From positions 1-47,160 of IMG/VR virus record IMGVR_UViG_3300042887_001118: 47,160 nt of DNA. The stretch is one strand, 5' to 3'. Source of the DNA: a virus. The notes below the pieces were generated by a model, which had not been told where the DNA came from, did not search any database, and saw only the letters and a list, made by a program, of their open reading frames with translations. Every line of letters starts with the position of its first letter. Positions within the stretch are counted from its first letter, which is position 1. The position numbers were made by a program, and so were the translations under genes. Shown here piece by piece: positions 1,628 to 24,661 of this stretch.

Positions 1628-1945
1628 ATGAAAAAAATACTCATATTATTATTAGTGTTATCCAGTTGTACTCCACTTAGATATGTAATGATAGATCCTA
1701 AAGACTCTTCAAAACTTGTAGAAGTAAGAAAGAGAATTATCTACGAAGACATATATCAACCTAGTATTCCTTTATATTTTTACAATGGATTTTACGCGCC
1801 TCAATACCAGAGACCAATAATCATACAGAGACCAATAGTAGTACCAAGAAGGCCAATAGTAGTGCCAACAAGACCGAGTGCACCTATCAATAGAAACTAC
1901 TCTAAACCATTGCCGAGAAATAAAAATAACAGACAACCAAGATGA
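1628..1945 (+). CDS. Lipoprotein with Pro/Arg-rich repeats
   Basis: The 105-residue protein has a typical signal peptide with lipobox (ILLLVLSSC, Cys at about residue 14). The mature part is basic and Pro-rich, with near-repeats of QRPI(I/V)(I/V) and RRPIVVPTRP at about residues 58-85. It should be anchored in a membrane of the host envelope. Its stop overlaps the start of the tail-fibre gene (ATGA at 1942-1945), so translation is probably coupled. Other envelope proteins lie nearby. Confidence 0.7.
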   Translation: MKKILILLLVLSSCTPLRYVMIDPKDSSKLVEVRKRIIYEDIYQPSIPLYFYNGFYAPQYQRPIIIQRPIVVPRRPIVVPTRPSAPINRNYSKPLPRNKNNRQPR

Positions 1946-3930
1946 TCATACAAAATCCATTACTAACCGGGTCTCTTAATTACAACGGAGCAGACCTATC
2001 TAACGTAACCAGTTCTAACGCAAACTCGGCCTCAGTTTCTTTAATACTTACTGCTGTCTCCTCTTCCAACCAACAATTAAGCGCTAGCTACATCGCTTTG
2101 AGTGGAAGTTACAACGTATTCTCTGGATCTGCTTCAACAAGGGTCACTCAAATAGAGAATACTTACGCTACTACCGGTTCTAATAGTTTTAGAGCTGATC
2201 AGAGCATTACGGGTTCTTTGGTAGTTAGTTCTACTATTACGGCTCAAACACTAGTGGTACAGACCGTTACTTCTAGTATTGTTTACTCAAGCGGTAGTAA
2301 TCTATTTGGAAGTGCATTGGGAGATAGACAGACATTTACTGGATCTGTTAATATTACTGGAAGTTTAGCTTTGGCTGGAAATATTACCTCAAACGGTACT
2401 GCTGTAGTGTTGGGTAGTGGAACAAGTAGCTACCTACCTAAGTTTACAGGTGCAAGTACAATAGGGAATAGTCAAATCTTTGATAATGGAACAACTGTTT
2501 TTGTAAATGCAACAACTGCTCCCGCTTTAGGTTCCCCTGAATTTTTTGTTAAGATGGGAACTGCGAACACCTATGAAGGTATATTAGTTGCAAGTTCAAC
2601 AAACAATAATGTAATTGCTATTGCACATACAGGAACACAAGGAATTATCACAACCAATTATGGAACAAGTGGAGCAAATACTCCTTTAGCTTTTGGAACA
2701 AATGGAGCTGCTCAAATGACACTAGATACTTCAGGCAATTTAGGATTAGGAGTTACACCGAGTAATGCTTATGGTGATAGTAGGACTTTTGAATTTGGTG
2801 CAGGTGGTATTTTATGGGCAGAACAAGCATCAAGTGTTTACAATTCAGTGCAATTTGGTTCTAACTTTTATTATAATTCAGTAGGTGATTTAAAGTATAA
2901 AAATTCAGGGGTAGCAGCTTCAAGATATTTTCAATATCAAGGTTCTCATATTTGGAATTATGCAGGTGTAGCACCATCGGCAGGAGCAGCTTTAACTTTT
3001 ACCTATGCAATGACCTTAGATGCGAGTGGTAGATTGGCATTAGGTAGAACTTCTGCTGACCATAGGTTAGATGTTCAAGGAAATATTCTTGTAAGAAATA
3101 CTTTAGCAAATGCTTCATTTTATTTTGCTCAAGAAGGTGATAATTCAAGCACATTATATCAATATAATAATAGTACATTAAAAAATGTAATAGCTTCTAA
3201 TGGTGTATCTTATATTACAGGTGGTAATGTCCTAATAGGTACAACTACCGATGCAGGATACAAGTTAGATGTTAATGGTAAAGGAAGATTTAAAATAGAT
3301 GGATTATCTGCTTTTGGACTTGATATTTTAAATAATAATGGAGTTAGAGGAGCTGGTTTTTATAATACCGGAGGCAATAATGTTCAATTATATTTTTACA
3401 ATTCAGCAAGTGTTGAAAAAATAGTACTTGATGGAGGCACTGGCGCTGGAGAATTTGCAAGTACGGTTACAACGACTGGAGTAAAATTTCCCGCTTCTCA
3501 AGTTGCATCAGCCGACGCTAATACATTAGATGATTATGAAGAAGGTACTTGGACACCGGTTATTGGAGGTTCTGGAGGTCAGTCAGGACAAAGTTATAGC
3601 GGACAAAATGGGTATTATGTAAAAATTGGTCGTCAAGTGACTGTGACGTTTAGAGTGGTGTTGAGTAATAAAGGAACTATTACTGGAGAAGCCGGTATTA
3701 AAAATCTTCCATTTACCGCTGATACCACAATTTCTTATGGTACAGGTGCATCTTTTTTTGAAGCGTTAGCGACATCTTGGTCTAGCATATTTTTCGTGGT
3801 TAATGGTAATACAACATTTGCAAGTGTTGACGGCTTAAAGACTGCTGGGACTACATCTACAAGAGCTACAACATCGGATATTGGCAATCTTACTCAATTC
3901 AATGGATCTTTTACATATCTTACAACATAA
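1942..3930 (+). CDS. Modular tail-fibre / receptor-binding protein
   Basis: The 662-residue protein is Ser/Thr/Asn/Gly-rich. Its N-terminal third contains short beta-type repeats (TGSLVVSSTITAQT, TGSVNITGSLALAG). The rest carries repeated tail-fibre motifs such as MTLDTSGNLGLGVTPS, MTLDASGRLALGRTS and GYKLDVNGKGRF, which are typical of phage fibres. Near residue 530 a DDYEEGTWTPV segment begins a final beta-rich knob. No clear S74 self-cleaving chaperone catalytic pair was identified. A small downstream gene is a likely fibre partner. Base composition shifts near 2450, suggesting an exchanged distal module. Function is receptor recognition at the virion tail. Confidence 0.85.
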   Translation: MIIQNPLLTGSLNYNGADLSNVTSSNANSASVSLILTAVSSSNQQLSASYIALSGSYNVFSGSASTRVTQIENTYATTGSNSFRADQSITGSLVVSSTITAQTLVVQTVTSSIVYSSGSNLFGSALGDRQTFTGSVNITGSLALAGNITSNGTAVVLGSGTSSYLPKFTGASTIGNSQIFDNGTTVFVNATTAPALGSPEFFVKMGTANTYEGILVASSTNNNVIAIAHTGTQGIITTNYGTSGANTPLAFGTNGAAQMTLDTSGNLGLGVTPSNAYGDSRTFEFGAGGILWAEQASSVYNSVQFGSNFYYNSVGDLKYKNSGVAASRYFQYQGSHIWNYAGVAPSAGAALTFTYAMTLDASGRLALGRTSADHRLDVQGNILVRNTLANASFYFAQEGDNSSTLYQYNNSTLKNVIASNGVSYITGGNVLIGTTTDAGYKLDVNGKGRFKIDGLSAFGLDILNNNGVRGAGFYNTGGNNVQLYFYNSASVEKIVLDGGTGAGEFASTVTTTGVKFPASQVASADANTLDDYEEGTWTPVIGGSGGQSGQSYSGQNGYYVKIGRQVTVTFRVVLSNKGTITGEAGIKNLPFTADTTISYGTGASFFEALATSWSSIFFVVNGNTTFASVDGLKTAGTTSTRATTSDIGNLTQFNGSFTYLTT

Positions 3931-3944
3931 AAAATTAATATAAA

Positions 3945-4187
3945 ATGGCTTTAACAGAAAAAACAATAATAGACAAAGTAGAATTAACAGAAGTTAATAC
4001 TATACAAGTAAGAACAGCAACCATCATTGAAAGAGATGGAACTGAAATCTCAAGAACATTTCATAGACACGTTGTAACTCCTGGATACGACGTAACAAAT
4101 GAAGACCCAAAAGTACAAGCAATAGCAAACGCTATTTGGACAGAAGAAGTAATTGCTGCTTACAGAGCGTCTTTAGAAACTAGATAA
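3945..4187 (+). CDS. Small tail-fibre-associated hypothetical protein
   Basis: This 80-residue protein has a beta-strand-rich N-terminal half (VELTEVNTIQVRTATIIERDG) and a helical C-terminal part (VQAIANAIWTEEVIAAYRA). Small proteins of this style are commonly encoded directly after phage tail-fibre genes. It lies 14 nt after the fibre gene. A chaperone or virion role is inference from position only. Confidence 0.65.
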   Translation: MALTEKTIIDKVELTEVNTIQVRTATIIERDGTEISRTFHRHVVTPGYDVTNEDPKVQAIANAIWTEEVIAAYRASLETR

Positions 4188-4188
4188 T

Positions 4189-4935
4189 ATGAAATCAAAA
4201 TACCAAAAAACATTACTAATAGTTGGTCTCTCTTTATTGTTAACAGTAATCACAATGACCAGTCTTTGCGCTCAAACCATAGGCAAAACTACAACCGAGC
4301 AATACAAGGCCTCGTTCGAAACAAAGCTAGACATCAGCCAATACATGGACTACTCAGGTCCAACCATTCCAATTCAGATATTGAAGTGTGGCATAGGAGA
4401 AGAGGTATACGAACAGTATCCAGAGTTAAAAGAAAAGCGAGTTGGTCTTGGTGTTGCTAATATCTCTTTAGAGTACTTAGAAAACTTAAACAGATTCACA
4501 TTCACAGAAGACAAGACGGAAATAAAAAATAGAATGGTAAAACAATTCCAGGCATCAGCAGCTGGAATTTCACAAGATAAATTGGACGGTAGAGGCAAGA
4601 TTAGATTGGCTCACTACTTCGTGGAGATCGAAGTCTACGACTGGTCAGTATCAGACGACGAAGAGGTAAATCTATCTAATGGAGTTAAGAACACAATGGT
4701 AACTCGTTTAGGTCTACAAGTAAGATTCACGGACGCAGAGACTGGAGAGATCATAGCAGCTTCTGGTTTGGGTGAAGCAAAAACAACAAGAGAATTAACC
4801 TTACTATCTGACGCAACAGTGGACCCGGTTAAATTCAATCAATCAACAGTTTCTATTGCAACTAAAAAAGCTTTAGATATTGCGTGTTCTCGTATTTTAG
4901 CAAGAATGGTTAAAAAGGGTGTATTCACCAAATAA
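4189..4935 (+). CDS. CsgG-like outer-membrane secretion/pore protein
   Basis: The 248-residue product has a signal peptide (about residues 1-29). Its mature sequence resembles the CsgG/HfaB family: a GVANISLEYLEN segment, a central strand pattern around AHYFVEIEVYDWS, then TRLGLQVRFTDAETGEIIAA and a terminal helix with ATKKALDIACSRILARM. CsgG forms the outer-membrane pore that exports curli subunits. The Cys near the end of the signal peptide (SLC) does not fit a strict lipobox, so lipidation is uncertain. No curlin, CsgE or CsgF gene is visible. The gene precedes a predicted outer-membrane barrel gene, separated only by a small ORF, suggesting an envelope-modifying pair. Confidence 0.65.
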   Translation: MKSKYQKTLLIVGLSLLLTVITMTSLCAQTIGKTTTEQYKASFETKLDISQYMDYSGPTIPIQILKCGIGEEVYEQYPELKEKRVGLGVANISLEYLENLNRFTFTEDKTEIKNRMVKQFQASAAGISQDKLDGRGKIRLAHYFVEIEVYDWSVSDDEEVNLSNGVKNTMVTRLGLQVRFTDAETGEIIAASGLGEAKTTRELTLLSDATVDPVKFNQSTVSIATKKALDIACSRILARMVKKGVFTK

Positions 4936-4936
4936 T

Positions 4937-5044
4937 ATGGCAAACGCAAAACCAAAAAAGAGAGCAATGCGCAGTCGTCGCTCTGGAGTTAAAAAGAAAC
5001 AATTAGTAGACAACAACTTAGCGATTCTAGCTAAATTGAAATAA
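4937..5044 (+). CDS. Short basic peptide between CsgG-like and barrel genes
   Basis: This 35-residue reading frame starts 1 nt after the CsgG-like gene stop and its last base overlaps the ATG of the next gene. It is very basic at the N-terminus (KPKKRAMRSRRSGVKKK) and ends in a short helix (NNLAILAKLK). The exact fit between two genes and the strong charge bias support a real small gene. A nucleic-acid-binding or translational-coupling role is possible but unproven. Confidence 0.55.
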   Translation: MANAKPKKRAMRSRRSGVKKKQLVDNNLAILAKLK

Positions 5045-6405
5045 TGAAAAAATGGATAGTAGCGTTTACGATATCGGTTTTGTCCTTATTAGCTCTGAAT
5101 GCTAAAGGGCAAAATATTGTTAACACTTACGTAGATCCATGCGATGGCAAGACTTACATATTCACAGCGCCAATCGCTTCCAATTCCCCAGGAGTTCTAG
5201 TTATAGTTAGGGGAAAATCTAGATTATTTACTTACGCAGACTTTGCATCAGGCACAGTAGATGCATGGATCAAATCCATATTCGCAACGCCATGTCCAGT
5301 ATCACAACAAACAACGGCCATAATAGCGACCACAGCTGCAACCGCGGCAACTCAAGCGGCTGCATCGGCAGCATCTTCCGCAGCTTCAAGTGCAGCAAGT
5401 TCCGCAGCGTCATCAGCCGCAAGTTCAAGTGCATCAAGCGCAGCTTCATCAAGTGCATCCACTGCATCGAGTTCTGCAGCATCATCAGCACCGCCACCAA
5501 CTTCGTCTTCATCCTCTTCTTCCTCCCAATCGTCTTCCTCTTCTGGATCTTCATCGTCATCAAGCTCAAGTTCAGAGAGTGGAGGCTCAGCAGGAGAAAC
5601 AAAGTCAGAGACAAAATCAGAAACTAAATCAGAGAGCAAATCTGAAGAGAGCAAATCAGAATCTAAATCTGAAGAGAAAAAAGAAGAAACTAAATCCGAA
5701 GAGAAGAAGGAAGAAAAGAAAAAAGAAGATAAAAAGAAAGAAGACAAGAAAAAGAACGCAAATGTAAATCCAATGATATTCTCTGCGGACTTAAGCGTAG
5801 CAGAGCAACCTCCAAATAGACAAGTAGTACCAACAATGAATATGGGAGTTTCAAAGTCTTCAATGACTGGGCTTTCCAACTTTGGTGCTAACGCAAGCAT
5901 ATTTTTAGACTTGAGTAAGATAGCTGTAGGAGGAAGTTATACAAAGAGTCAAATGAATGGTAGAGGTCAATTAGAAGCGATGCATAACTTTGGTGCGACC
6001 TACTTCACCGACTTCGCAAATCACATGATATTTCCAGCGTACACGTACATTCAACCAATAGACAAGCTAATCACAGGCTATAATATAAGCGCTAACACTG
6101 CGTTCATTCAAGGAGGATCGATTAGTCTATCCCCTTCAATAATCAGCTTCGCCATGTATCCCATAACTGTAGGCAGAAAGACCATAACTCCAGATCTATT
6201 TATGATAGCCGCTCCATGGGGAATCTCTTTAAAAGACGGATATCAAACAAGAAGCAGAGATCTAACGTTTTTAACTGGATTCGCTACAGACTTTAAAATC
6301 ACTAGGAAGTTTAAAGTGAACGTTAATTTCAAGGTGATGTTAGGCACTGCAGATGGAAGCATACCAATAAGATCTTTCATGATTGGTAGCAGATTGAATT
6401 TATAA
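5044..6405 (+). CDS. Secreted predicted outer-membrane barrel with Ala/Ser and Lys/Glu/Ser linkers
   Basis: The 453-residue protein begins with a signal peptide (MKKWIVAFTISVLSLLALNA) and a small N-terminal domain with two Cys (about residues 33 and 83). A long low-complexity linker follows: Ala-Ser repeats (about 95-150), poly-Ser (about 150-178), then Lys/Ser/Glu repeats (about 185-240). The last 200 residues alternate hydrophobic and polar strands with Gly/aromatic turns and end in GSRLNL, as expected for an outer-membrane beta-barrel. It is probably co-expressed with the CsgG-like gene. The linker could span the periplasm or be surface exposed; its role is unknown. Confidence 0.65.
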   Translation: MKKWIVAFTISVLSLLALNAKGQNIVNTYVDPCDGKTYIFTAPIASNSPGVLVIVRGKSRLFTYADFASGTVDAWIKSIFATPCPVSQQTTAIIATTAATAATQAAASAASSAASSAASSAASSAASSSASSAASSSASTASSSAASSAPPPTSSSSSSSSQSSSSSGSSSSSSSSSESGGSAGETKSETKSETKSESKSEESKSESKSEEKKEETKSEEKKEEKKKEDKKKEDKKKNANVNPMIFSADLSVAEQPPNRQVVPTMNMGVSKSSMTGLSNFGANASIFLDLSKIAVGGSYTKSQMNGRGQLEAMHNFGATYFTDFANHMIFPAYTYIQPIDKLITGYNISANTAFIQGGSISLSPSIISFAMYPITVGRKTITPDLFMIAAPWGISLKDGYQTRSRDLTFLTGFATDFKITRKFKVNVNFKVMLGTADGSIPIRSFMIGSRLNL

Positions 6406-6516: not shown

Positions 6517-6723
6517 ATGACCATGAAAAAAATCATGTTTGTTTTCGCTTCAGCATTAGTATTGACTGCTTGCGGAACAGGAAACAGTGCAGCGACAGCT
6601 ACAACTGACAGCGCTACAGTAACTGTAGACACAACTTTAGCAACAACAGATTCAACTGCTGTACCAACAGAAGTTCCAACTGAAGTTACTACTGACAAAG
6701 CTTTACCAGAAGGAGTTAAATAA
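6517..6723 (+). CDS. Small Thr-rich lipoprotein
   Basis: The product is 68 residues long from ATG 6517, or 66 from the in-frame ATG at 6523. It has a classic lipoprotein signal (FVFASALVLTAC). The mature part is almost entirely Thr, Ala, Val, Asp and Ser, ending in PEGVK. It should be exported and lipid-anchored. High Thr content makes it a possible O-glycosylation substrate, which is inference. A 111-bp A/T-rich gap with a conserved motif precedes it, so it may have its own promoter. Confidence 0.7.
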   Translation: MTMKKIMFVFASALVLTACGTGNSAATATTDSATVTVDTTLATTDSTAVPTEVPTEVTTDKALPEGVK

Positions 6724-7071: not shown

Positions 7072-7441
7072 GGGGATGCTTTGGAATTGATTCGCAATTT
7101 GGAGGTAATACCACACGCAGAGAGAAGTACTAGATCTCTTTAAATCTGTACAAAACAACAACCGACGAAATGTCAACAATGACCTTCGATTCTTTAATGG
7201 AATTCGTAGGCGCGAACGAGTACGCATTAGCTGCTTAATTAGCATCGGGTGTAACATCCTAGGAACAGAAGTTACAAAAATGTTTTCTTAGTTATGTCAA
7301 AACTAAGTGGTGGTAGTCGTAAGAACCAAAAATCATATACGACCCTTTACTGATCAGCTTAAAATGTAGATCTAAGCGTGTGAGACGTTGGTATTATTAT
7401 TCATTGTGAAGACACGAGTTCGACTCTCGTCATCTCCACCA
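7072..7441 (+). ncRNA. ssrA: Transfer-messenger RNA (tmRNA) with tag GANEYALAA
   Basis: The tRNA-like ends pair: GGGGATG (7072-7078) with CATCTCC (7431-7437), followed by discriminator A7438 and an encoded CCA (7439-7441). The third pair is G-U, the alanine identity signal read by AlaRS. The T arm is ACGAG-TTCGACT-CTCGT (7414-7430). An internal tag reading frame at 7209-7238 (resume codon probably GGC) encodes GANEYALAA then TAA, a typical SsrA degradation tag. Downstream hairpins CTTAGTT/AACTAAG (7287-7307) and GTCGTA/TACGAC (7316-7343) fit the pseudoknot region. tmRNA rescues stalled ribosomes and tags the peptide for ClpXP. The phage would depend on host SmpB, as none is seen here. Confidence 0.93.
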
Positions 7442-7453
7442 AAAATAAAGGTT

Positions 7454-7873
7454 ATGAAATGGATTTCTTCTTTTGTAGTAGCTGTGTTTTTTACAATACC
7501 ATTAAAAAGCACTGTATATCTTTTTAAATCAAATGAATCAGCGCCTGTAATTACAGACACTGTAACTGTGACAACTTATACCACCGATATAAGCGAAACT
7601 GACGAAGAGCCTCTTATAACTGCGAGTGGTTTTAAACTTGATTCTTTAAATCCAAGAAGACACAAGATAATCGCTATAAGTAGGGACTTAAAAAAGAGAT
7701 ATCCATTTGGATCTAAGGTAAGAGTAACTGGTCTTGGAAAAAAGTACGATGGAGTATATAAAGTAGAAGACGTAATGCACTCAAGGTGGAGAAAGAAAAT
7801 AGATCTACTTATAAATCCTAAAGACAAACAGTTTAAAAAGAGAAGAGTTGTAATAACTCCTATAGAAAAATAA
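7454..7873 (+). CDS. Exported 3D-domain (double-psi barrel) protein
   Basis: The start at 7454 is chosen because upstream in-frame codons lie inside the tmRNA; this ATG follows AAAGGTT. The 139-residue protein has an N-terminal hydrophobic signal or anchor (ISSFVVAVFFTIPL). A 3D/RlpA-like domain at about residues 35-125 follows, with LITASG, IIAISRDL, PFGSKVRVTG and EDVM-x-SRW-x3-IDLLI in the expected order, including acidic residues of the Asp-rich signature. Such domains occur in peptidoglycan-acting enzymes and cell-wall-binding proteins. A role in host wall lysis is plausible, and this is the only candidate lytic protein seen here. Confidence 0.7.
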   Translation: MKWISSFVVAVFFTIPLKSTVYLFKSNESAPVITDTVTVTTYTTDISETDEEPLITASGFKLDSLNPRRHKIIAISRDLKKRYPFGSKVRVTGLGKKYDGVYKVEDVMHSRWRKKIDLLINPKDKQFKKRRVVITPIEK

Positions 7874-12351: not shown

Positions 12352-13794
12352 ATGATTAAAGGTTACACTCCAAAGGATCAAAGAAAAAAGATCTTGTTTT
12401 TGTGCGATGACATTAGAATGACAAGCGGAATATCAACTATAGCTAGAGAATTAGTTATAGGTACATCCCACAGATTTAATTGGATCAACGTAGGTGGAGC
12501 CATCCAACATCCAGACAATGGAAAAAGATTGGACATAAGCGAAGATACAAATAAAATAATGGGAATTCCTGACGCATCTGTGTTTATATACCCAATAAAC
12601 GGATACGGTTCTCCAGAATTGATTAGACAGTTGATGGACATTGAGAAACCTGACGCTATCATGTTTTTCACAGATCCAAGATATTGGACTTGGTTGTTTC
12701 AAATGGAAAACGAAATTAGGAAAAAAGTTCCTATGATCTACTTAAATATTTGGGACGATTTACCTGCTCCTCTTTATAATAAGTCTTACTACGAATCTTG
12801 CGATACACTAATGGCGATTTCAAAACAAACTTTGAATATCAATAAGCTTGTATTAGGAGATAAAGCTGCAGATAAGATATTACGATATATTCCACATGGT
12901 ATAAACGAAAAGATATTTTTTCCAATCAACGAATTTATGGTTCAAGACATTCAAGCGCTTGAAGCAAAAAAGAAAGCGGTATTCGGAAATAATATGCCAG
13001 AGTTTGTGGTTTTCTACAACGCAAGAAATATTAGAAGAAAGTCGACATCTGATTTGATAGCAGCTTATTCTATATTCTGCGAGAAGATAGGAAAAGAGAA
13101 AGCTAAGAAGTGCGCTTTACTTATGCACACTCAAGTAAGAGACGATAACGGTACAGACTTAGACGCAGTTAAAGATCTATTATGTGATCCAGAATATGTA
13201 AGAGTTGTTTTTCACGATGCTAGAGTTGCTGCAAATGAAGTAAACTGGTTATATAATATGTCAGATGTTACAGCATTGATTTCTTCTAACGAAGGTTGGG
13301 GATTATCTTTAACAGAATCTTTGATGGCCGGTAAAATGATTATTGGTAATGTAACAGGCGGAATGCAAGATCAAATGAGATTCGAAGACGAGAATGGCAA
13401 GTGGATTGACTTCGATGAAAACTTCTGTTCTAATCACTTTGGAACTTACAAAAAGCATGGAGATTGGGTCGTACCCGTATATCCTTCTAACTTAAGCATC
13501 GTTGGATCTATTCCTACTCCGTATATCTTTGACGATCGTTGCGACATTAGAGACGTTGCAAAAGCTATAGAAGAAGTTTACAATCTAGGACCAGAAGAAA
13601 GACAGAAAAGAGGATTGAGCGGAAGAACTTGGGTACAATCAGATGAATCTATGATGAGTGCAAGACGTATGTCAGAAAACGTTATAGAGTGCATAGAAGA
13701 TACATTCAGCAATTTTAAACCAAGAAAATCTTTCGAATTAATTAAGATAGATAAATTACCAAGAAAAAAAATAACACACAAACTAATATATTAA
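12352..13794 (+). CDS. GT4-type glycosyltransferase
   Basis: The 480-residue enzyme has a GT-B fold pattern: an N-terminal KILFLCDDIRMTSGIST donor/acceptor loop and a C-terminal domain with the EX7E motif EGWGLSLTE (Glu314, Glu322) typical of GT4 retaining transferases. PHGINEKIFFP is the usual interdomain linker motif. It likely transfers a sugar from a nucleotide donor in the cytoplasm. It is the first enzyme gene of the island and is followed by a second GT4-type gene after 1 nt. Donor and acceptor cannot be told from sequence. Confidence 0.85.
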   Translation: MIKGYTPKDQRKKILFLCDDIRMTSGISTIARELVIGTSHRFNWINVGGAIQHPDNGKRLDISEDTNKIMGIPDASVFIYPINGYGSPELIRQLMDIEKPDAIMFFTDPRYWTWLFQMENEIRKKVPMIYLNIWDDLPAPLYNKSYYESCDTLMAISKQTLNINKLVLGDKAADKILRYIPHGINEKIFFPINEFMVQDIQALEAKKKAVFGNNMPEFVVFYNARNIRRKSTSDLIAAYSIFCEKIGKEKAKKCALLMHTQVRDDNGTDLDAVKDLLCDPEYVRVVFHDARVAANEVNWLYNMSDVTALISSNEGWGLSLTESLMAGKMIIGNVTGGMQDQMRFEDENGKWIDFDENFCSNHFGTYKKHGDWVVPVYPSNLSIVGSIPTPYIFDDRCDIRDVAKAIEEVYNLGPEERQKRGLSGRTWVQSDESMMSARRMSENVIECIEDTFSNFKPRKSFELIKIDKLPRKKITHKLIY

Positions 13795-13795
13795 T

Positions 13796-15088
13796 ATGAA
13801 GCAATATTGTGTAATAAGCTGTCCAATAGACACTTATTCAGGTTACGGAGCAAGAGCTAGAGATTTTGTTAAAGCATTATACGAATCCAAAAAAGAAGAG
13901 TACGATATCGAAATCATATCACAAAGATGGGGAGTTACTCCATGGGGATATATAAAAGATCATGAACAAGAATGGGGTTTTTTAGAATCAATGATCATGA
14001 AACAACAGATGACAAAACAGCCAGACGTTTGGATTCAAATTACAGTGCCAAATGAATTTCAAGCTGTAGGTAAATTTAACATCGGAGTTACTGCAGGTAT
14101 AGAAACCACATTATGCCATGCAACTTGGATAGATGGAGTTAACAGAATGAACTTGACGTTAACCTCTTCAGAGCACGCTAAAAATGTTTTCAAACAATCT
14201 ACTTTCGAAGAAAAGAATGGTCAAGGTCAAGTAGTTAGACAAATCAAATTAGAAAAACCAGTAGAAGTACTATTTGAAGGTGTTGATCTGAACAAATATT
14301 TTTACGTAGCAGATGATGATTTAGATGGCACTGAATTGGTTCAGGCTTTGGATGAAATAAAAGAGGACTTCTGTTATCTGTTTGTTGGACATTGGTTACA
14401 AGGAGATTTAGGCGAAGATAGAAAAAATGTAGCCTTAACTATTAAGACATTCTTAGAAACATTTAAAGATAAGAAAAGCAAACCAGCTTTAATACTTAAA
14501 ACATCAGGAGCAGGATCTTGCATTATGGATAGAGACGAGATGCTTAAAAAGATTGACGCTATAAGAAACACTGTGAGTGGAAGTTTACCTAACATTTACT
14601 TGTTACACGGAGAGATGGACGATAAAGATATCAACAATTTATACAATCACGGTAAAGTTAAAGCCATGATTAGCTTGACAAAGGGCGAAGGATTTGGTAG
14701 ACCTCTATTGGAATTTACTTTATCCAAAAAACCATTGATAGTAACAGCGTGGTCAGGTCATATCGATTATTTGTATATGGAAAATACATGCATGGTAGGT
14801 GGAACACTAAAAGGAGTTCATCCATCAGCACAAGTAAAAGATATGATATTACCAGAATCTGCATGGTTTAGTCCTGATACAAAGCAAGCGGAGTTCTATT
14901 TAAAAGACATCTTTGAAAAGTACTCTAAGTACGAAGAGCGAGCAAAGAAACAAGCGCATCAATCTAAAACTAAATTTAGCTTTGACGAGATGAAGAAAGC
15001 TTTAGAAGCTGTATTCAATAAAATTCCTAAAAGTGTGGGATTGACTTTACCTAAACTTAAAAAAATAGAAGTTAAAAATGACAAGTAA
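13796..15088 (+). CDS. GT4-type glycosyltransferase
   Basis: The 430-residue protein begins with CPIDTYSGYGARARDF, a GT-B N-terminal loop. It carries the linker motif VEVLFEGVDLNKYF and the C-terminal EX7E motif EGFGRPLLE, followed by KKPLIVTAWSGHIDYL. These match GT4 enzymes with a bacterial 'Gly-x-Gly' acceptor loop. It follows the other GT4 gene by 1 nt, suggesting the two act in one pathway. Its 3' end overlaps the next small gene by 11 nt. Confidence 0.85.
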   Translation: MKQYCVISCPIDTYSGYGARARDFVKALYESKKEEYDIEIISQRWGVTPWGYIKDHEQEWGFLESMIMKQQMTKQPDVWIQITVPNEFQAVGKFNIGVTAGIETTLCHATWIDGVNRMNLTLTSSEHAKNVFKQSTFEEKNGQGQVVRQIKLEKPVEVLFEGVDLNKYFYVADDDLDGTELVQALDEIKEDFCYLFVGHWLQGDLGEDRKNVALTIKTFLETFKDKKSKPALILKTSGAGSCIMDRDEMLKKIDAIRNTVSGSLPNIYLLHGEMDDKDINNLYNHGKVKAMISLTKGEGFGRPLLEFTLSKKPLIVTAWSGHIDYLYMENTCMVGGTLKGVHPSAQVKDMILPESAWFSPDTKQAEFYLKDIFEKYSKYEERAKKQAHQSKTKFSFDEMKKALEAVFNKIPKSVGLTLPKLKKIEVKNDK

Positions 15089-15293
15089 AGAATTCGTAAT
15101 TTGGCTCAAAGGATTCACTGAAGGAGTTCATGATTTTAATATCACCCCTAAACAGTGGGATTTATTAAAAGAAGAATTAGCAAAAGTAAATGATGAACCT
15201 CGTAATACCGTAGCCTACTACTCTCAAGATGGTAGACCAGCTTGGTACACAACCACTAATTCAACTAACGATAAAACATTATTAAATGACTGA
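15078..15293 (+). CDS. Small phage protein (EFVxWLKGF type)
   Basis: The 71-residue protein has a helical N-terminal half with EFVIWLKGFTEGVHDFNITP and QWDLLKEELAKV, a pattern recurrent in small phage and prophage proteins of Bacteroidota. The C-terminal third is Thr/Asn-rich and probably disordered. It overlaps both neighbours. Its place inside a glycan island may be incidental. Confidence 0.6.
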   Translation: MTSKEFVIWLKGFTEGVHDFNITPKQWDLLKEELAKVNDEPRNTVAYYSQDGRPAWYTTTNSTNDKTLLND

Positions 15294-15732
15294 TCAATTA
15301 ACATCATGTCCAAAGTGTAAGGCCGAAGATGCATGCTACATAACTCCAATTAATGAGTTTCATAGTGGATACGCATGCTTTAGTTGTGGTTTTACAACTA
15401 GCGATTTAATGAGAGAAGGCGAATTTGATTTCGAACAATACGAAGAAGAGATGCCTGAACTTTACAAAGATTTAAAGTACACTGACGAAGATGGTCGTGT
15501 ATGGTATCCTCAAGTAATTAACATAGAAGACAAAGGTACCGTATTTGCAAATGGCGGTTCTAAAGAGGATTGGCAATGGGCTGGAATTAAAACTATAGAA
15601 TTAACAGAAGAAGAGAAAGAGCTCCCTAAATTTAAAGGCAAGACTCACAAATCAGATTCTGCTAGCTTACAAGCATTCGAAGAGGATTTCTTTGCTGCTT
15701 GTGATTATATAGGATTGTTTGATATAAAATAA
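15286..15732 (+). CDS. Zinc-ribbon hypothetical protein
   Basis: The 148-residue protein starts with a zinc ribbon (CPKCKAEDACYITP, then CFSCGF at about residues 31-36) followed by an acidic region and a compact beta domain (WYPQVINIEDKGTVFANGG, DWQWAGIKTIEL). Related single-ribbon proteins are common in phages with unknown roles. It overlaps the preceding gene by 8 nt and ends 5 nt before a GT2 gene. Confidence 0.6.
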   Translation: MTDQLTSCPKCKAEDACYITPINEFHSGYACFSCGFTTSDLMREGEFDFEQYEEEMPELYKDLKYTDEDGRVWYPQVINIEDKGTVFANGGSKEDWQWAGIKTIELTEEEKELPKFKGKTHKSDSASLQAFEEDFFAACDYIGLFDIK

Positions 15733-15737
15733 AGAAT

Positions 15738-16346
15738 ATGAAAATAAGTTACGCGATAACTGCACACAACGAGGCAGAAGAATTAAATAGACTCTTAAAA
15801 CAACTCACCGAAGGAAAAGAACCGGGAGACGAGATCTTAATTCAGTTAGACGATAAAGCCACAGACAAAGTAAAATTTGTAGTTGATTCGTATCCAGTAA
15901 AATCTATTACATTTCCTCTTAATAACGATTTCGCTGCATTTAAAAACAATCTAAAGGATAATTGTACTGGAGACTATATCTTCTTTATAGATGCTGACGA
16001 ATATCTTTCTGAGCATTTACTAAAACTGCTTAAGCAAGTATTAGAATCTAATTCTCAAGTAGATTGTTATGGAGTTCCAAGAGTTAATACAGTTAAAGGT
16101 TTAACAGAAGAACACATAAAGAAATGGGGTTGGATAGTTAAAGACAACAAAATAAATTGGCCTGATTATCAAACAAGAATCTGTAAGAATGTTCCTCATA
16201 TAAAATGGGCTGGTAAGGTTCACGAAAGATTACAAGGTTGGCAAGTATCTTCAGTATTTCCCGCAGATTTTGAAGATTGGGCTTTGTACCACCCTAAAAC
16301 AATAGAAAGACAAGAACAACAAAACAATTATTACAACACGTTATGA
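15738..16346 (+). CDS. GT2-type glycosyltransferase
   Basis: The 202-residue enzyme has a GT-A core: ISYAITAHNEAEEL at the N-terminus, a LDDKATD loop, and the DxD-type motif FFIDADEYL (about residues 81-89) that binds metal and nucleotide sugar. A WAGKVHERL segment with WALYHPKTIERQ follows, as in small LPS-type GT2 proteins. It overlaps gmd by 4 nt. Donor and acceptor are unknown. Confidence 0.85.
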   Translation: MKISYAITAHNEAEELNRLLKQLTEGKEPGDEILIQLDDKATDKVKFVVDSYPVKSITFPLNNDFAAFKNNLKDNCTGDYIFFIDADEYLSEHLLKLLKQVLESNSQVDCYGVPRVNTVKGLTEEHIKKWGWIVKDNKINWPDYQTRICKNVPHIKWAGKVHERLQGWQVSSVFPADFEDWALYHPKTIERQEQQNNYYNTL

Positions 16347-17326
16347 GTAAAGTAGCACTAATCACTGGTATTAACGGTCAAGATGGAAGTTATTTAGCGG
16401 AGTTATTATTGGAAAAAGGATACGAAGTACACGGCATATTAAAAAGAAACTCCGTAGCAGAGAATCAAACAGCAAGAATTAAAGTTTACGATGAGATCAA
16501 AGATAATTTGACTTACGCAGATATGACTGACTTAGCTTCTCTTAATAGAGTATTGGCTAAAGTACAGCCTGACGAGATATATAACTTAGCCGCTCAATCT
16601 CATGTAAGAATATCATTCGATCAACCAGTATACACGGCAAACACAGTTGCAATTGGAACTCTTAATCTATTGGAAGCCACGCTATCTATGTGTAAGAACG
16701 CAAAGATATACCAAGCATCCTCTTCTGAAATGTTTGGTAATTCTATAGATGAAGATAGATTTCAAAGAGAGTCCACTCCAATGAATCCAGTATCTCCTTA
16801 TGGATGTGCTAAAGTATTCGGATACAACATAACAAGGAACTATAGAAACTCTTATGGCATGTATGTGTCTAATGGAATTCTATTTAACCACGAATCTCCA
16901 AGAAGAGGCACAAACTTCGTAACAAACAAAGTGGTTAAAGAAGCGGTTAAAATATTCTACGGCCAATCAACAGAATTAAGATTGGGAAACTTAGAAGCTA
17001 CTAGAGATTGGGGTCATGCTAAAGATTACGTAGAAGCAATGTGGAGAATATTACAATTAGAAGAGCCTAACGATTTTGTTTGTGCTACTGGAGTTTCACA
17101 CTCAGTTAAAGAACTATGCGAGTATGTATTCACTAAGTTAGGTTTAAACTACGAAGACTACGTAAAGTTAGATATGAAGTTTTTAAGACCTGAAGAGTTA
17201 ACTGATTTAAAGGGAGATCCTACCAAATTAATGAAAGCCACAGGTTGGGTACCCACATACACATTTGAAACAATGCTTGATGAAATGATTGAGTATTGGA
17301 AACACGAATTAAATAAAGTATTCTAA
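16343..17326 (+). CDS. gmd: GDP-mannose 4,6-dehydratase
   Basis: The 327-residue extended-SDR enzyme has the Rossmann motif GINGQDGSYLAELLL, NLAAQSHVRISFDQP, the catalytic SSSEMFG and YGCAK (Tyr-x3-Lys). It also has the GDP-sugar loop NHESPRRGTNFVTNK and ATRDWGHAKDYVEAMW. It converts GDP-D-mannose to GDP-4-keto-6-deoxy-mannose. It is slightly shorter than cellular Gmd (about 340-370). The next gene, overlapping by 1 nt, encodes the following step to GDP-L-fucose. No mannose-1-phosphate guanylyltransferase is present, so GDP-mannose must come from the host. Confidence 0.93.
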   Translation: MSKVALITGINGQDGSYLAELLLEKGYEVHGILKRNSVAENQTARIKVYDEIKDNLTYADMTDLASLNRVLAKVQPDEIYNLAAQSHVRISFDQPVYTANTVAIGTLNLLEATLSMCKNAKIYQASSSEMFGNSIDEDRFQRESTPMNPVSPYGCAKVFGYNITRNYRNSYGMYVSNGILFNHESPRRGTNFVTNKVVKEAVKIFYGQSTELRLGNLEATRDWGHAKDYVEAMWRILQLEEPNDFVCATGVSHSVKELCEYVFTKLGLNYEDYVKLDMKFLRPEELTDLKGDPTKLMKATGWVPTYTFETMLDEMIEYWKHELNKVF

Positions 17327-18225
17327 TGACAAAAGTAATTACCGGAGGAACTGGATTAATAGGATCTGCTTTCAGTGAAGGAGTTAAATTAAGTTCTAAA
17401 AGAGATTTAAGAGATTACGATAAAGCAAAGTTCGCTATATCAATGTATAAACCAAACGTAGTGATACATTGCGCAGCTAAAGTAGGCGGAGTCGGAGCCA
17501 ACATGGAATTCCCAGCAGATTTTTTTATGGACAACATTAGAATGAATACGAATGTGATTCAAGCTTGTCACGAATTAAAAGTGTCTAAGCTAGTATCTTT
17601 TTTATCTACGTGTGTATTTCCTGATAAAGTGGAATATCCATTAGACGAAACCAAAATAGAATTAGGCGCTCCACACGCATCAAACTTCGCTTACGCTTAT
17701 GCTAAGAGAATGGCAGACGTACAAATCAGAGCATTCAATAAACAATACGGCACACAATATTTTTCAGTAATTCCTTGTAATGTTTATGGACCAAATGATA
17801 ACTACAGCTTAGAAGTTGGTCATGTAATTCCAATGCTAATTCACAAGTGTTATCTTGCTAAGAAAAATAGAAAGACATTTGAAGTATGGGGTGATGGTAC
17901 TCCGCTTAGGGAATTTGTTTATTCAAAAGACGTAGCAAACATAGTAGATCTACTTATTCAGAAATACGAGGGGACTGATCCTGTGATTATATCCAATCCA
18001 ACTGAGTATTCTATTAAACAAGTAGTTGATCTGATTGTGGAGTACGTGGGCTTCAAGGGGAAAGTAAAATGGTTGACAGACAAACCAAACGGTCAACACA
18101 GAAAACCATCTTCTAACGCCAAACTTTTAAGTATCATAGGAGACTATGAATTTACCACTTTGGAGAAAGGTTTAAAAGAATCGATAGAATGGTTTATATT
18201 AAACTATCCAAAAATTAGAAAATAA
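17326..18225 (+). CDS. fcl: GDP-L-fucose synthase
   Basis: The 299-residue SDR enzyme has GGTGLIGSA, the GDP-fucose synthase signature CAAKVGGVGANMEFPADFF, the active-site STCVFP with conserved Ser and Cys, YAYAKRMAD (Tyr-x3-Lys) and NVYGPNDNY. It performs the NADPH-dependent epimerisation and reduction of the Gmd product to GDP-L-fucose. It overlaps gmd and the next gene by 1 nt each, indicating coupled translation. Fucosyltransferase-like genes at 19993 and 24662 are the likely users of its product. Confidence 0.93.
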   Translation: MTKVITGGTGLIGSAFSEGVKLSSKRDLRDYDKAKFAISMYKPNVVIHCAAKVGGVGANMEFPADFFMDNIRMNTNVIQACHELKVSKLVSFLSTCVFPDKVEYPLDETKIELGAPHASNFAYAYAKRMADVQIRAFNKQYGTQYFSVIPCNVYGPNDNYSLEVGHVIPMLIHKCYLAKKNRKTFEVWGDGTPLREFVYSKDVANIVDLLIQKYEGTDPVIISNPTEYSIKQVVDLIVEYVGFKGKVKWLTDKPNGQHRKPSSNAKLLSIIGDYEFTTLEKGLKESIEWFILNYPKIRK

Positions 18226-18896
18226 TGACAAAAGAATTAATTGTAGCTTCTTATTTTGATTCAAAAGCAAGGTATCTAGAAGACGTTTCATGGTTAAATA
18301 GAATAGATCCTTCTATAAAAATTTATTTATACAATAAAAATGAAAATAACCACTATCCAAACTCCATACATTTGCCTAACGTAGGTAGAGAGGGTCATAC
18401 GTACATACACCACATATGTGAAAACTATGATAATCTTTCAGAGTATTTATTCTTTTTTCAAGGCTATCCATTTGATCACACTGGATCTTGTATAGAAATA
18501 ATTAATGAAGATTTAGATATATGGAATTTAAAATCTCAATTAAGATTTGATGGATATTGGGGATATTGCCACAATTATTTTGGAACTATGTGGAATCTAG
18601 ATAAAGCAATCGAGTTCGAAGGCAATTGTTTAAGATGCGATAAAAATGGAAAACCACATCATCATGAAAATATTCCATGTTGGCAACTATGGCAAGAAAT
18701 GTTCGATTGTGAAATTCCAGAGACCATAGAATTTAATCCAGGAAATCAGTTTAATGTGAGTAGAGATTTAATAAAACAAAGAGGTTTAGATTTTTGGAAA
18801 AAGTTATTAGCTTTATCATATACTAGAGAGCTTTGGCCTTGGGAGTTAGAAAGATTAATGCCTTATATGATGAATCCTAAATACAAATCTAAATAA
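18225..18896 (+). CDS. DUF3431-like putative glycosyltransferase
   Basis: The 223-residue protein contains the segments LPNVGREGHTYIHHI, NLSEYLFFFQGYPFDH and WELERLMPYM, characteristic of DUF3431 proteins, which accompany glycosyltransferases in polysaccharide clusters. Conserved His, Asp and Cys residues suggest a catalytic or metal site, but the reaction is not established. Its sequence is clearly more A/T-rich than gmd and fcl. It overlaps fcl and glf by 1 nt each. Confidence 0.75.
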   Translation: MTKELIVASYFDSKARYLEDVSWLNRIDPSIKIYLYNKNENNHYPNSIHLPNVGREGHTYIHHICENYDNLSEYLFFFQGYPFDHTGSCIEIINEDLDIWNLKSQLRFDGYWGYCHNYFGTMWNLDKAIEFEGNCLRCDKNGKPHHHENIPCWQLWQEMFDCEIPETIEFNPGNQFNVSRDLIKQRGLDFWKKLLALSYTRELWPWELERLMPYMMNPKYKSK

Positions 18897-19996
18897 TGAA
18901 ACCGTATGACTATTTAATTGTAGGGTCAGGATTTTTTGGATCTATATGTGCTCATGAACTTAAAAAATCAGGAAAACGATGTTTAGTAATAGACAAACGT
19001 AATCATATTGGAGGAAATTGCTATACTGAAAATAGAGACGAAATAAATGTTCACATATATGGCCCTCATATATTCCACACAAACAGTGAAAAAGTATGGA
19101 TGTGGATAAATCAATTTGTTAATTTTAATAATTTTGTTTTTAGACCTGTTGCAAATTATAAAAATAATATATATTCTTTACCTTTTAACATGTTTACTTT
19201 TTCTAAACTTTGGAATATATCTTCTCCAAAAGAAGCTATAGAAATAATAGAAAAACAAAGTTCTCACATTCAATTTCCTAAAAATCTAGAAGAGCAAGCT
19301 ATTAAATTAGTGGGTACTGAAATTTATGAAAAATTAATAAAAGGCTATACAGAAAAGCAATGGAAAAAAGATGCAAAAGATTTACCAAAAGAGATAATAA
19401 AAAGATTGCCTGTTAAATTTACTTATGATAATAGCTATTTTGATGACAAATATCAGGGCATCCCAATAGGCGGATATACTCAAATATTTGAAAAATTATT
19501 AAATGACATACAAGTTGAACTTAACGTAGATTATTTATTAGATAGAGAGTATTGGGATAATAAAGCCGATAAAATTATATTCACAGGACCTATAGATGCT
19601 TTTTATGAATATAAATTTGGCCAGTTGGAATATAAAACAAATAATTTCGTTCATAAAAAATTAGAAGTAGAAAATTTTCAAGGGACGTCAATGATGAATT
19701 ATACAGAAAAAGATATTCCGTATACTAGAATAATAGAGCATAAACATTTTGAATTTAATAAGAATAATAAATGCACTTGGATATCATATGATTATCCTGT
19801 AGAATACGATTATAAAACAACTGATCCATATTATCCTGTAAATGATGAGGAGAACAATAAAAAATATACTTTATACAAAAATTTATCAAATCAAGAAAAA
19901 ACTATTATGTTTGGTGGTAGATTAGCCGAATACAAGTACTACGATATGGATGATGTCATAGATTCAGCTTTAAATTTTATAGAAAAAATAATATGA
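18896..19996 (+). CDS. glf: UDP-galactopyranose mutase
   Basis: The 366-residue flavoenzyme begins with LIVGSGFFGSICAHELKKSG and VIDKRNHIGGNCYTE, the FAD-binding UGM signature. YGPHIFHTNSEKVW, LPFNMFTFSKLW, KGYTEKQWKKDAKDLP and FGGRLAEYKYYDMDDVI follow, all diagnostic. It interconverts UDP-galactopyranose and UDP-galactofuranose. Length is normal for bacterial Glf. The substrate must come from the host. The coding sequence is markedly more A/T-rich than its neighbours, suggesting separate acquisition. Confidence 0.95.
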   Translation: MKPYDYLIVGSGFFGSICAHELKKSGKRCLVIDKRNHIGGNCYTENRDEINVHIYGPHIFHTNSEKVWMWINQFVNFNNFVFRPVANYKNNIYSLPFNMFTFSKLWNISSPKEAIEIIEKQSSHIQFPKNLEEQAIKLVGTEIYEKLIKGYTEKQWKKDAKDLPKEIIKRLPVKFTYDNSYFDDKYQGIPIGGYTQIFEKLLNDIQVELNVDYLLDREYWDNKADKIIFTGPIDAFYEYKFGQLEYKTNNFVHKKLEVENFQGTSMMNYTEKDIPYTRIIEHKHFEFNKNNKCTWISYDYPVEYDYKTTDPYYPVNDEENNKKYTLYKNLSNQEKTIMFGGRLAEYKYYDMDDVIDSALNFIEKII

Positions 19997-20829
19997 TAAG
20001 TTATAAAAAAATAGGACACTTTGGTAGATTGGGAAATCAAATGTTTCAGTTCGCTTCCACTGTAGGCGTAGCTAATAAGACTGGACACAACGTAGCATTT
20101 CCAAAAGAGAATATAACTGTACCTAGCGTGGAACATTTTAAAGACGGAGTTAGAAGAGAAGTTTATTTTGATTTACCCAAGTATTTCGACAATGTTAAGT
20201 TGACACTGAAACCAGAATCAGAGATAACAACATTACACATAGCGCAAGAACCTTACTTTCATTTTTGTCAAGACCTATTTAGAGTACCAGATCAAACCAA
20301 TTTAATGGGCTACTTTCAAACAGAGAAGTACTTTGAACATTGCCGCGAAAAAATAAGAGAATTCTTCGAGTTTAATTCAGAAACAAAAAAGAAAGCCGAG
20401 TCTGCTTTTCCAACATTTCCTATGCAATTAGAATTTGTGTCTATACATTTAAGAAAGGGAGATTACGCAGGTCTTCAACAGTTTCACCCAGTAATGAACG
20501 CAGACTACTATTTCAATGCTATGACCTATTTTATGGATGGTAACTATTGCTTCTTAGTATTCTCTGACGATATAGAATATGCCAAAGAGTTATTCGGAGA
20601 TCAAGAGAACATTGTTTATATGGAAGGAAACGAACCTGATGTAGACATGTGCATGATGAGTATGTGCCATCACAACGTAATAGCCAACAGTAGTTTCAGT
20701 TGGTGGGGTGCATGGTTAAATCAAAACCCGGATAAAAGAATTGTAGCTCCAAAGAAGTGGTTCGGACCTGCATACAATGGAGTTCATGATACAAAAGATT
20801 TATACCCACAATCATGGATTATAGTATAA
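19993..20829 (+). CDS. GT11 fucosyltransferase (alpha-1,2 type)
   Basis: The 278-residue product fits GT11: GRLGNQMFQFAS at the N-terminus, MGYFQTEKYF, the donor-binding HLRKGDYAG motif, FVFSDD-like FLVFSDDIEYAK, and NSSFSWWGAWLN near the C-terminus. GT11 enzymes transfer L-fucose from GDP-fucose, usually alpha-1,2 to galactose. This matches the gmd-fcl pair upstream. It overlaps glf by 4 nt. The exact acceptor is unknown. Confidence 0.9.
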   Translation: MISYKKIGHFGRLGNQMFQFASTVGVANKTGHNVAFPKENITVPSVEHFKDGVRREVYFDLPKYFDNVKLTLKPESEITTLHIAQEPYFHFCQDLFRVPDQTNLMGYFQTEKYFEHCREKIREFFEFNSETKKKAESAFPTFPMQLEFVSIHLRKGDYAGLQQFHPVMNADYYFNAMTYFMDGNYCFLVFSDDIEYAKELFGDQENIVYMEGNEPDVDMCMMSMCHHNVIANSSFSWWGAWLNQNPDKRIVAPKKWFGPAYNGVHDTKDLYPQSWIIV

Positions 20830-20847
20830 AATATAAATTAAGCTAAT

Positions 20848-21735
20848 ATGAAATATGAAAGAGCGTTGGTTTTTGGTGCTGCCGGTATGTTAGGTACTAC
20901 TTTAAAGACTTTAATAAATTCAAATAAGTATATTCTAACTGATAAAGATGTTATTCCAGGATTGGAATTTTGTGATATAAGAGATTTAGAACATACTTCT
21001 AAAATAGTGCAAAAATATAATCCTGATATTATTTTAAATTTTGCAGCATTGGTAGATCTTGAATATTGTGAAAAAGAAAAAGATGATTGTTATCTTACAA
21101 ATACAATCGCTTCTATTCATTTATTTAATTTGGCAAAAGATTTAGATATTCCTTACGTGTTTATAAGCACGGCTGGAATATTTGGAAACGATAAAGAATT
21201 TTATACAGAAGAAGACATACCATATCCGCTAAGCACTTACGGAAAAAGTAAGTATTACACTGAACAATCTTTGTTGCAACAACAATATAATAAATTTTGG
21301 ATATTTAGAGCGGGTTGGATGATGGGAGGAGGACCTGATGTTGATAAAAAATTCGTTAATAAGATACTTAAACAAGTAAAAGCCGGCAAAAAAGAACTTT
21401 TTGTTGTCGACGATAAATTAGGAGTTCCCACATATACTAAAGATTTTGCTAATTCTATATTAAAGCACATCGAAGAAGATCTTCCCTTTGGACTTTATAA
21501 TATGGTAAGTACAGGAGAAGCAAGCCGATATGATACTGCAATAGAAATAAATAATTATTTAAAATTAGGATTAACTATCACAAAGGTGAATAGCGACTAT
21601 TTTAAAGATGAATATTTTTCTCCAAGACCATATTCTGAAAAATTAATTAATCAAAAACTAAATAATTTAGACAGAAATTATATGCGAGATTGGAAAATTT
21701 GTTTACATGAATATTTAAACGATTTTTTTAAATGA
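20848..21735 (+). CDS. RmlD-like NAD(P)-dependent sugar reductase
   Basis: The 295-residue SDR protein has VFGAAGMLGTTL, NFAALVDLEYCE, FISTAGIFG and YGKSKYYTEQ (Tyr-x3-Lys), and FRAGWMMGGG, the order seen in dTDP-4-dehydrorhamnose reductase. No RmlA, B or C gene is in the window. It may finish a host-made dTDP-4-keto sugar, or act on another 4-keto sugar. Strong A/T bias (many AAT, ATA, GAA codons) sets it apart from gmd/fcl. It overlaps the next GT2 gene by 4 nt. Confidence 0.8.
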   Translation: MKYERALVFGAAGMLGTTLKTLINSNKYILTDKDVIPGLEFCDIRDLEHTSKIVQKYNPDIILNFAALVDLEYCEKEKDDCYLTNTIASIHLFNLAKDLDIPYVFISTAGIFGNDKEFYTEEDIPYPLSTYGKSKYYTEQSLLQQQYNKFWIFRAGWMMGGGPDVDKKFVNKILKQVKAGKKELFVVDDKLGVPTYTKDFANSILKHIEEDLPFGLYNMVSTGEASRYDTAIEINNYLKLGLTITKVNSDYFKDEYFSPRPYSEKLINQKLNNLDRNYMRDWKICLHEYLNDFFK

Positions 21736-23663: not shown

Positions 23664-23664
23664 T

Positions 23665-24660: not shown

Positions 24661-24661
24661 T

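Follow-up and report, generated by a model that had tools for sequence, protein, structure and literature searches.

Why a phage should carry a CsgG gene has been a puzzle since the pelagiphages, a pore, curli fibres, exclusion and an aid to lysis all having been considered. The curli genes described in pelagimyophages (PMC7029224), in Melnitz (PMC9004378) and in pelagipodophages (PMC9599517) are CsgG proper, and the passages of these papers that deal with them put forward sibling capture, exclusion, import and lysis as hypotheses. The same question is raised in another lineage by the DNA analysed here (the window), a virus record of 47,160 bases that is a fragment of a larger phage and in which a CsgG-like gene lies close to a gene for an outer-membrane barrel. 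Both ORFs are intact and on the plus strand, as had been described in a reading made from the sequence alone (the sequence-only reading): an exported protein of 248 aa with a signal peptide at about residues 1-29 is encoded at 4189-4935 and an exported protein of 453 aa at 5044-6405, with a basic peptide of 35 aa between them (4937-5044, plus strand), the stop of which overlaps the start of the barrel gene. This peptide looks optional, because its motif is found in just 16 of 81 loci. The pair could be the outer-membrane part of a phage-encoded surface-display cassette that is produced in an infected flavobacterium-like host and acts most plausibly in exclusion, a tentative reading to which we give somewhat less than an even chance. 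The cassette probably rebuilds the surface of the infected cell, and the layout of its parts is secure as far as prediction and synteny reach.

Predicted folds of the two proteins

The first protein had been called a CsgG-family pore, and in the predicted structure the likeness to CsgG is one of fold, not of sequence. The model, built on an alignment of 19 sequences (mean pLDDT 76.8, pTM 0.69), retrieves CsgG chains in the top 14 rows of a Foldseek search of the PDB (best E 1.2e-7, range 1e-7 to 2.4e-6), with PelC after them and modest TM-scores (about 0.42-0.48 in the best rows). In VIA, CsgG is also on top (Z 12.3, rmsd 4.3, 163 residues), the next non-CsgG rows being Cj1090c (Z 10.5) and PelC (Z 9.2). 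Many small lipoproteins (LptE, PqiC, TraT) reach Z 7-8, so that such scores are not specific; this holds for the surface exclusion protein TraT (Z 7.5), a ring of loosely similar fold that, unlike the window protein, is a lipoprotein. At the sequence level there is no significant match in Pfam or PHROG, the PF03783 profile does not match at E up to 1, hhalign against K-12 CsgG is not significant and the family profile (A1) finds nothing among the sequences of solved structures. The protein shares with CsgG of the curli (type VIII) system and its phage copies in HTVC008M and Melnitz the predicted fold (Z 12.3) and, with the latter, being encoded by a phage, but these copies are 37-40% identical to E. 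coli CsgG, whereas the window protein has no significant sequence match. It also differs from CsgG in its shorter hairpins, in having a barrel partner and in the absence of a lipobox from its sequence, a pattern found in only 3 of 124 CsgG-like relatives.

The CsgG-fold ring could be a true outer-membrane pore for the adhesins of the cassette or another phage product, much as curlin is passed by CsgG, with the barrel as an accessory. CsgG is indeed the best structural match, large exported proteins are encoded within the same cassette, and the faces of hairpin 1 alternate between hydrophobic and polar (0.86/-1.97 and -0.94/1.09, a measure on which short stretches of true CsgG score weakly too). 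However, hairpin 2 is poorly modelled and lacks amphipathic faces (by the same measure, stretches of true CsgG are again weak), an invariant glutamate (Glu158) lies on the hydrophobic face of hairpin 1, the window copy has no lipobox, and sorting domains fused to the adhesins point to the type IX route of the host, so that we regard such a channel as unlikely. The fold postulated by the sequence-only reading is retained, but the name "CsgG pore" is not warranted, since a PF03783 match and a lipobox are lacking and hairpin 2 is not amphipathic; nothing points to the release of phage-made material that had been offered as one of its functions.

The second protein consists of a signal peptide, an N-domain of about 65 residues (residues 23-88, at 5110-5307), a low-complexity linker that is rich in Ala/Ser and then in Ser/Lys/Glu (about residues 89-241, at 5308-5766) and a C-terminal beta-barrel (residues 242-453, at 5767-6402), all on the plus strand. 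The N-domain has two invariant cysteines (Cys33 and Cys84) and is exchanged between relatives. In the model, built from 32 sequences, the barrel has 12 strands within residues 244-451, with pLDDT mostly 70-90, and residues 112-227 of the linker are disordered (pLDDT <50). The signal-bearing barrel that had been predicted is thus upheld, with Z up to 22.9 in VIA (NalP), and structure prediction yields both the CsgG fold and the barrel, not the absence of either by which the sequence-only reading could have failed. The odd-numbered loops of the barrel, which would face outward if the topology is standard, are more variable than the even-numbered ones (mean entropy 2.13 vs 1.54, p 0.008). Neither Pfam nor PHROG gives a significant match to the protein, and the profiles of the barrel (A8) and of the N-domain (A9) find nothing among the sequences of solved structures. 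A profile of the phage barrel matches at E up to 0.01 in 30 of 149 host genomes, and the two matches that were scanned are DUF5777; the likeness to these Flavobacteriaceae barrels (PF19089) is weak and partial, the phage protein has an additional N-domain and linker, and the DUF5777 and PorP/SprF Pfam profiles do not match the phage barrel.

The order of signal, N-domain, linker and C-terminal 12-stranded barrel would fit a miniature autotransporter that displays its own N-domain with the help of the CsgG-fold protein, translocators top the VIA list (NalP), and the N-domain is exchanged between close phages. Nevertheless, other 12-stranded barrels (KdgM, with Z 20.0 and rmsd 1.8 over 164 residues, NanC and FapF) fit nearly as well as the autotransporter barrels, the edge of NalP being slight, the linker and its helices have low pLDDT, and no autotransporter profile matches in Pfam at E up to 1, all of which makes this alternative quite unlikely. 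A kinship of the barrel with FapF or with the autotransporters was also considered, and fold comparison cannot separate the two.

PelC is a CsgG-like ring protein that acts with a separate outer-membrane barrel protein, PelB. A polysaccharide exporter of that kind would place the CsgG-fold ring under the barrel and feed it from the sugar genes at 12352-28710; PelC is among the best folds (Z 9.2), PelBC is listed in VIA, and many sugar-gene-like ORFs lie downstream in the window. However, the hairpins of the window protein are predicted to be longer than those of PelC, and its barrel partner, N-domain and further partners are unlike PelB: the barrel is 12-stranded, and its protein carries an N-domain that goes with the type of adhesin. 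The sugar genes, moreover, are read by eye, with no polymerase or synthase identified among them, and we consider this exporter very improbable.

Genes and conservation of the cassette

The sequence-only reading saw the pair and the lipoproteins around it but missed both a wider cassette and its link to type IX secretion. The window (all genes on the plus strand) opens with the last 61 codons and the stop of a gene for a lipo15-type lipoprotein, whose fold resembles the T9SS sorting domain (1-186, open from base 1, with its 5' end outside the window; complete members of the family occur in 35 other loci), and its own adhesin would therefore lie beyond the window end. Then come TM4 (193-498; 101 aa, with a single membrane segment predicted at the N-terminus and a tail rich in proline and lysine), a family present in 100 loci that has no significant match in Pfam or PHROG, TM6 (516-1127; 203 aa, with two hydrophobic segments and many cysteines at the C-terminus), which matches PHROG 38564 of unknown function (E 8.6e-5), and TM9 (1160-1399; 79 aa, two hydrophobic segments in a holin-like topology), for which the PHROG matches are not significant. 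The two flanking lipoprotein genes that had been described are indeed found, the partial one at 1-186 being a third: a lipoprotein-like ORF of 105 aa with a lipobox-like start and no family match (1628-1945), located before a fibre-like insert, and a small downstream lipoprotein of 68 aa (6517-6723), the lipobox of which (LPAM_1, E 0.0059) is just below the cut-off and the family of which is found in 28 loci, its membership of the cassette being uncertain. The insert (1942-4187), placed directly before the CsgG-like gene, encodes a fibre-like protein of 662 aa without a signal and an 80-aa protein of PHROG 6228; the fibre family is present in just nine loci.

Protein clustering was used to compare the loci and the first 20 kb of the window. 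Every CsgG-query locus that extends 5 kb or more downstream has the barrel (62 of 62, out of 80 loci, with the barrel also in 13 of the remaining 18), and every barrel-query locus that extends 6 kb or more upstream has CsgG (29 of 29). Where CsgG-query loci reach 7 kb or more upstream (55 loci), a large exported protein of the adhesin family is always present, accompanied by TM4 (51), a lipoprotein of family 3 or 15 (50), TM9/TM14 (49), a small exported protein of family 5 (45) and TM6 (36), and these genes mostly run in the order small exported protein, adhesin(s), lipoprotein(s), TM4, TM6, TM9/14, CsgG and barrel. Four of the five loci without a lipoprotein (L016, L028, L030 and L055) are taken as fused, and the fifth is taken to be L033, with its adhesin at a contig end. 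These query-specific, flank-filtered counts are unbiased, while the counts of signals, lipoboxes and the GH19-containing family mix loci from either query. By a crude rule, signals are found in 117 of 124 CsgG-like relatives and in 104 of 153 barrel-family ORFs (some of those without being fragments), and for this reason a virion protein was rejected as the leading reading. In one count, matches were tallied ORF by ORF, and each of the two locus sets contained some contigs more than once.

Families 5 and 8 are mixtures produced by single-linkage clustering, their members in the window being a 59-aa peptide (family 5) and the 105-aa lipoprotein together with the 35-aa peptide (family 8), and the small exported protein was counted with a length limit of 130 aa. 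This protein may share the CsgG fold, a kinship that is suggestive only: the hhalign probability between the two families is 12.5%, yet their profiles rank each other's families high (AUC 0.93 and 0.993), the family 5 profile (A5) gives only chance-level rows among the sequences of solved structures, and a protein of this type in relatives has a weak Pfam match to TraT (E 2.8e-4, below the cut-off).

The small proteins with two hydrophobic segments that precede CsgG could instead belong to a lysis module, in which holin-like TM proteins and an endolysin would aid a pair that weakens the outer membrane late in infection, in a spanin-like manner. Lysis had been among the functions suggested for the pair from its sequence, and it draws slight support from endolysin genes near the cassette in some relatives: a GH19-containing family is located at most ten genes away in 28 of 124 loci and adjoins the cassette in L155 and L146. 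A lysis role has also been proposed for the Melnitz CsgG by the authors who described that phage (PMC9004378). However, there is no holin or spanin match in the cassette (TM4, TM6, TM9 and TM14 were tried as holins, with no significant match), and adhesins, sorting domains and an exchangeable N-domain are not needed for lysis, so that this role appears distinctly improbable. An exported DNA/RNA non-specific endonuclease is also encoded near the cassette in L005 (7046-7675; PF01223, E 1.4e-31), L022 (16019-16651), L110 (14095-14727) and one immuto record (immuto26A_12), and a periplasmic nuclease could also serve exclusion. Two further exported proteins, of 277 aa (L139, 1226-2056) and 297 aa (L114, 362-1252), are encoded close to the cassette in some relatives and represent families that probably form barrels and have no Pfam or PHROG match.

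Adhesins, sorting domains and the exchanged N-domain

Among 36 adhesin-family proteins scanned (E up to 0.01), the domains found are Cohesin (17), Lectin_C (7), PA14 (5), Por_Secre_tail (4) and Dockerin_1 (3). As judged from the sequences, each adhesin type either pairs with sorting-domain-like lipoproteins or bears that domain itself. The numbers of adhesins and lipoproteins rise together: of the 67 loci that reach 6.5 kb or more upstream, 25 encode a single adhesin with a single lipo15 and the small protein, 19 encode two adhesins with two lipo3 and the small protein, and the remaining 23 show other combinations, some of them cut by contig ends. Adhesins that have no partner lipoprotein (L016, L028, L030, L032, L055, L154 and L156) end in a T9SS-sorting-domain-like C-terminus, which in three loci tested scores above the Pfam cut-off of 27 bits in L156 (44.5) and L028 (31.6) and just below it in L055 (25.5). 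Weak matches to the sorting domain, at E up to 1, are also found in the cassette lipoproteins, 8 of 26 with Pfam (best 5.5e-6) and 9 of 26 with NCBIfam, the L068 lipoprotein being below both cut-offs, suggesting that these lipoproteins could be sorting domains split off from the adhesins. If true, a sorting domain borne by a separate lipoprotein would mean that type IX secretion is exploited here in a novel manner.

The N-domain of the barrel protein behaves as an exchangeable module. Among 113 barrel proteins with both domains located, 526 pairs share 70% or more identity in the barrel, and 34 of these share no more than 40% in the N-domain; of 1,172 pairs that share 65% or more identity in the N-domain, 184 share no more than 40% in the barrel. 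The nearest relative of the window (L001, on a 174-kb contig) illustrates this: its barrel domain is 85% identical and its N-domain only 28%, and its adhesin and lipoprotein set is switched, with two adhesins and two lipo3 where the window has lipo15. The two CsgG-like proteins differ at seven positions, six of them in the signal peptide and one in the mature protein. More generally, median identity is 43% for the barrel proteins and 22% for the adhesins at a CsgG identity of 75-80%, and such constancy of the ring beside changing partners is in keeping with a fixed platform that bears exposed, rapidly evolving parts.

The sequence comparisons indicate that the N-domain changes with the type of adhesin, although CsgG, as in the window and L001, can be nearly the same. 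N-domains with a D[K/R]C motif go with lipo3 in 39 loci and with lipo15 or fused adhesins in none, and those with DPC in 12 and 24, respectively; 75 of 114 loci enter this comparison, those left out having no located N-domain or no recognised adhesin type, and the list of fused loci is our own reading of the adhesin C-termini. The association (Fisher p 4.9e-11) is inflated by relatedness among loci, and on supported branches there are only three independent pairs, of which 2.4 on average go in the same direction and none is opposed.

These features suggest how the display cassette could work. Both members of the pair have a signal peptide and should leave the cytoplasm via Sec. The CsgG-fold protein would form a ring at the outer membrane, and the barrel would insert beside or over it and, by means of its exchangeable N-domain, hold on to the adhesin complex. 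The adhesins (cohesin, lectin, PA14) would reach the surface through the type IX secretion system of the host, with the sorting domain for export either fused to the adhesin or carried by the partner lipoprotein. The coated surface would then alter what binds the infected cell, most plausibly keeping competing phages off. A remodelling of the host outer membrane, as the sequence-only reading had suggested, fits the adhesins, the lipoproteins, the small exported protein and the small membrane proteins, and is in part borne out. A bolder version, a phage-built trans-envelope display machine of CsgG-fold ring, barrel and adhesins with TM4 as a tether, lipoprotein-borne sorting domains that enter the host T9SS and the N-domain as an exchangeable docking code for the adhesin, seems unlikely. 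Several observations run counter to display: 12 loci pair a DPC N-domain with lipo3, the supported independent switches of the N-domain are few, the lipoproteins resemble the sorting domain only weakly, the adhesin of the window itself would lie beyond its end, and the endolysins near the cassette in some relatives would suit a lysis module too.

Two further known systems resemble parts of the cassette. T9SS shuttle barrels (SprF/PorP) pair with adhesins such as SprB (PMC12618676), and a disulfide link between SprF and GldK has been described (PMC12635249). Here too, an adhesin has a dedicated outer-membrane barrel as partner, with the gene close by, but the phage barrel has 12 strands and no PorP/SprF match in Pfam, and the sorting domains of the cassette are type A-like and partly on lipoproteins. 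Cryophage, in turn, encodes highly variable proteins with T9SS type A sorting domains, one of them with PA14, for which its authors suggest superinfection exclusion (PMC7468147). Phage-encoded proteins with type A sorting domains, PA14 included, are thus common to Cryophage and the cassette, although neither a CsgG-fold ring nor a barrel is named for Cryophage in the passages on these proteins.

Carriers, hosts and neighbouring genes

The carriers of the cassette are phages of freshwater Bacteroidota, among which the block of exported genes is conserved. CsgG-like relatives are encoded in 466 IMG/VR stretches, which argues that the pair is not there by chance, and among 50,697 phage records the isolates with such a relative are confined to Flavobacterium phage immuto (Immutovirus, 160 kb; four records). 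The immuto copy (immuto26A_17) is 54.8% identical to the CsgG-like protein of the window and is followed by a relative of the barrel gene (immuto26A_18), although the barrel protein used as a query found no phage record directly in the same set. Since Immutovirus has cultured members and a Flavobacterium host, the question is open to experiment.

An origin of the CsgG-fold gene from the host was considered and is not supported: the contig scan gave two MAG contigs (L155 and L156), both of which are phage by gene content, as judged by eye, and the CsgG-fold profile matched 1 of 199 host-family genomes, namely the MAG of L155 itself, while true PF03783 CsgG is present in 25 of 100 of these host-family genomes. 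These contigs are binned as Flavobacterium and Bacteroidetes MAGs, and their phage-like gene content means that those public bins seem to hold phage sequence.

A general family scan of the window and cassette proteins gave no match to curli families. A CsgG-fold gene in another abundant lineage, apparently without curlins and, in the loci tested, always with a barrel and adhesins, suggests that surface remodelling is one use to which phages put this fold. CsgG in phages (pelagiphages, Melnitz) and T9SS cargo encoded by a phage (Cryophage) have been published before, and what is new is this lineage and its cassette; among the open-access literature matches listed, there is no publication on a CsgG/barrel pair in Bacteroidota phages and nothing relevant on phage barrels in exclusion.

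Other genes lie downstream of the pair in the window. The ORF at 7454-7873 encodes an exported protein of 139 aa that is near PHROG 21574 (unknown) and weakly like the L-alanyl-D-glutamate peptidase family; by eye it has a 3D-type cell-wall domain and is possibly a lysis gene. The long run of ORFs at 12352-28710 appears by eye to contain sugar-nucleotide and glycosyltransferase genes. Melnitz, a methylophage, has a tmRNA (PMC9004378). A tmRNA is also present in the window (7072-7441; Rfam RF00023, 84.5 bits, tag ANEYALAA), with four tRNAs downstream, and tmRNAs occur as well in 4 of 10 related loci scanned.
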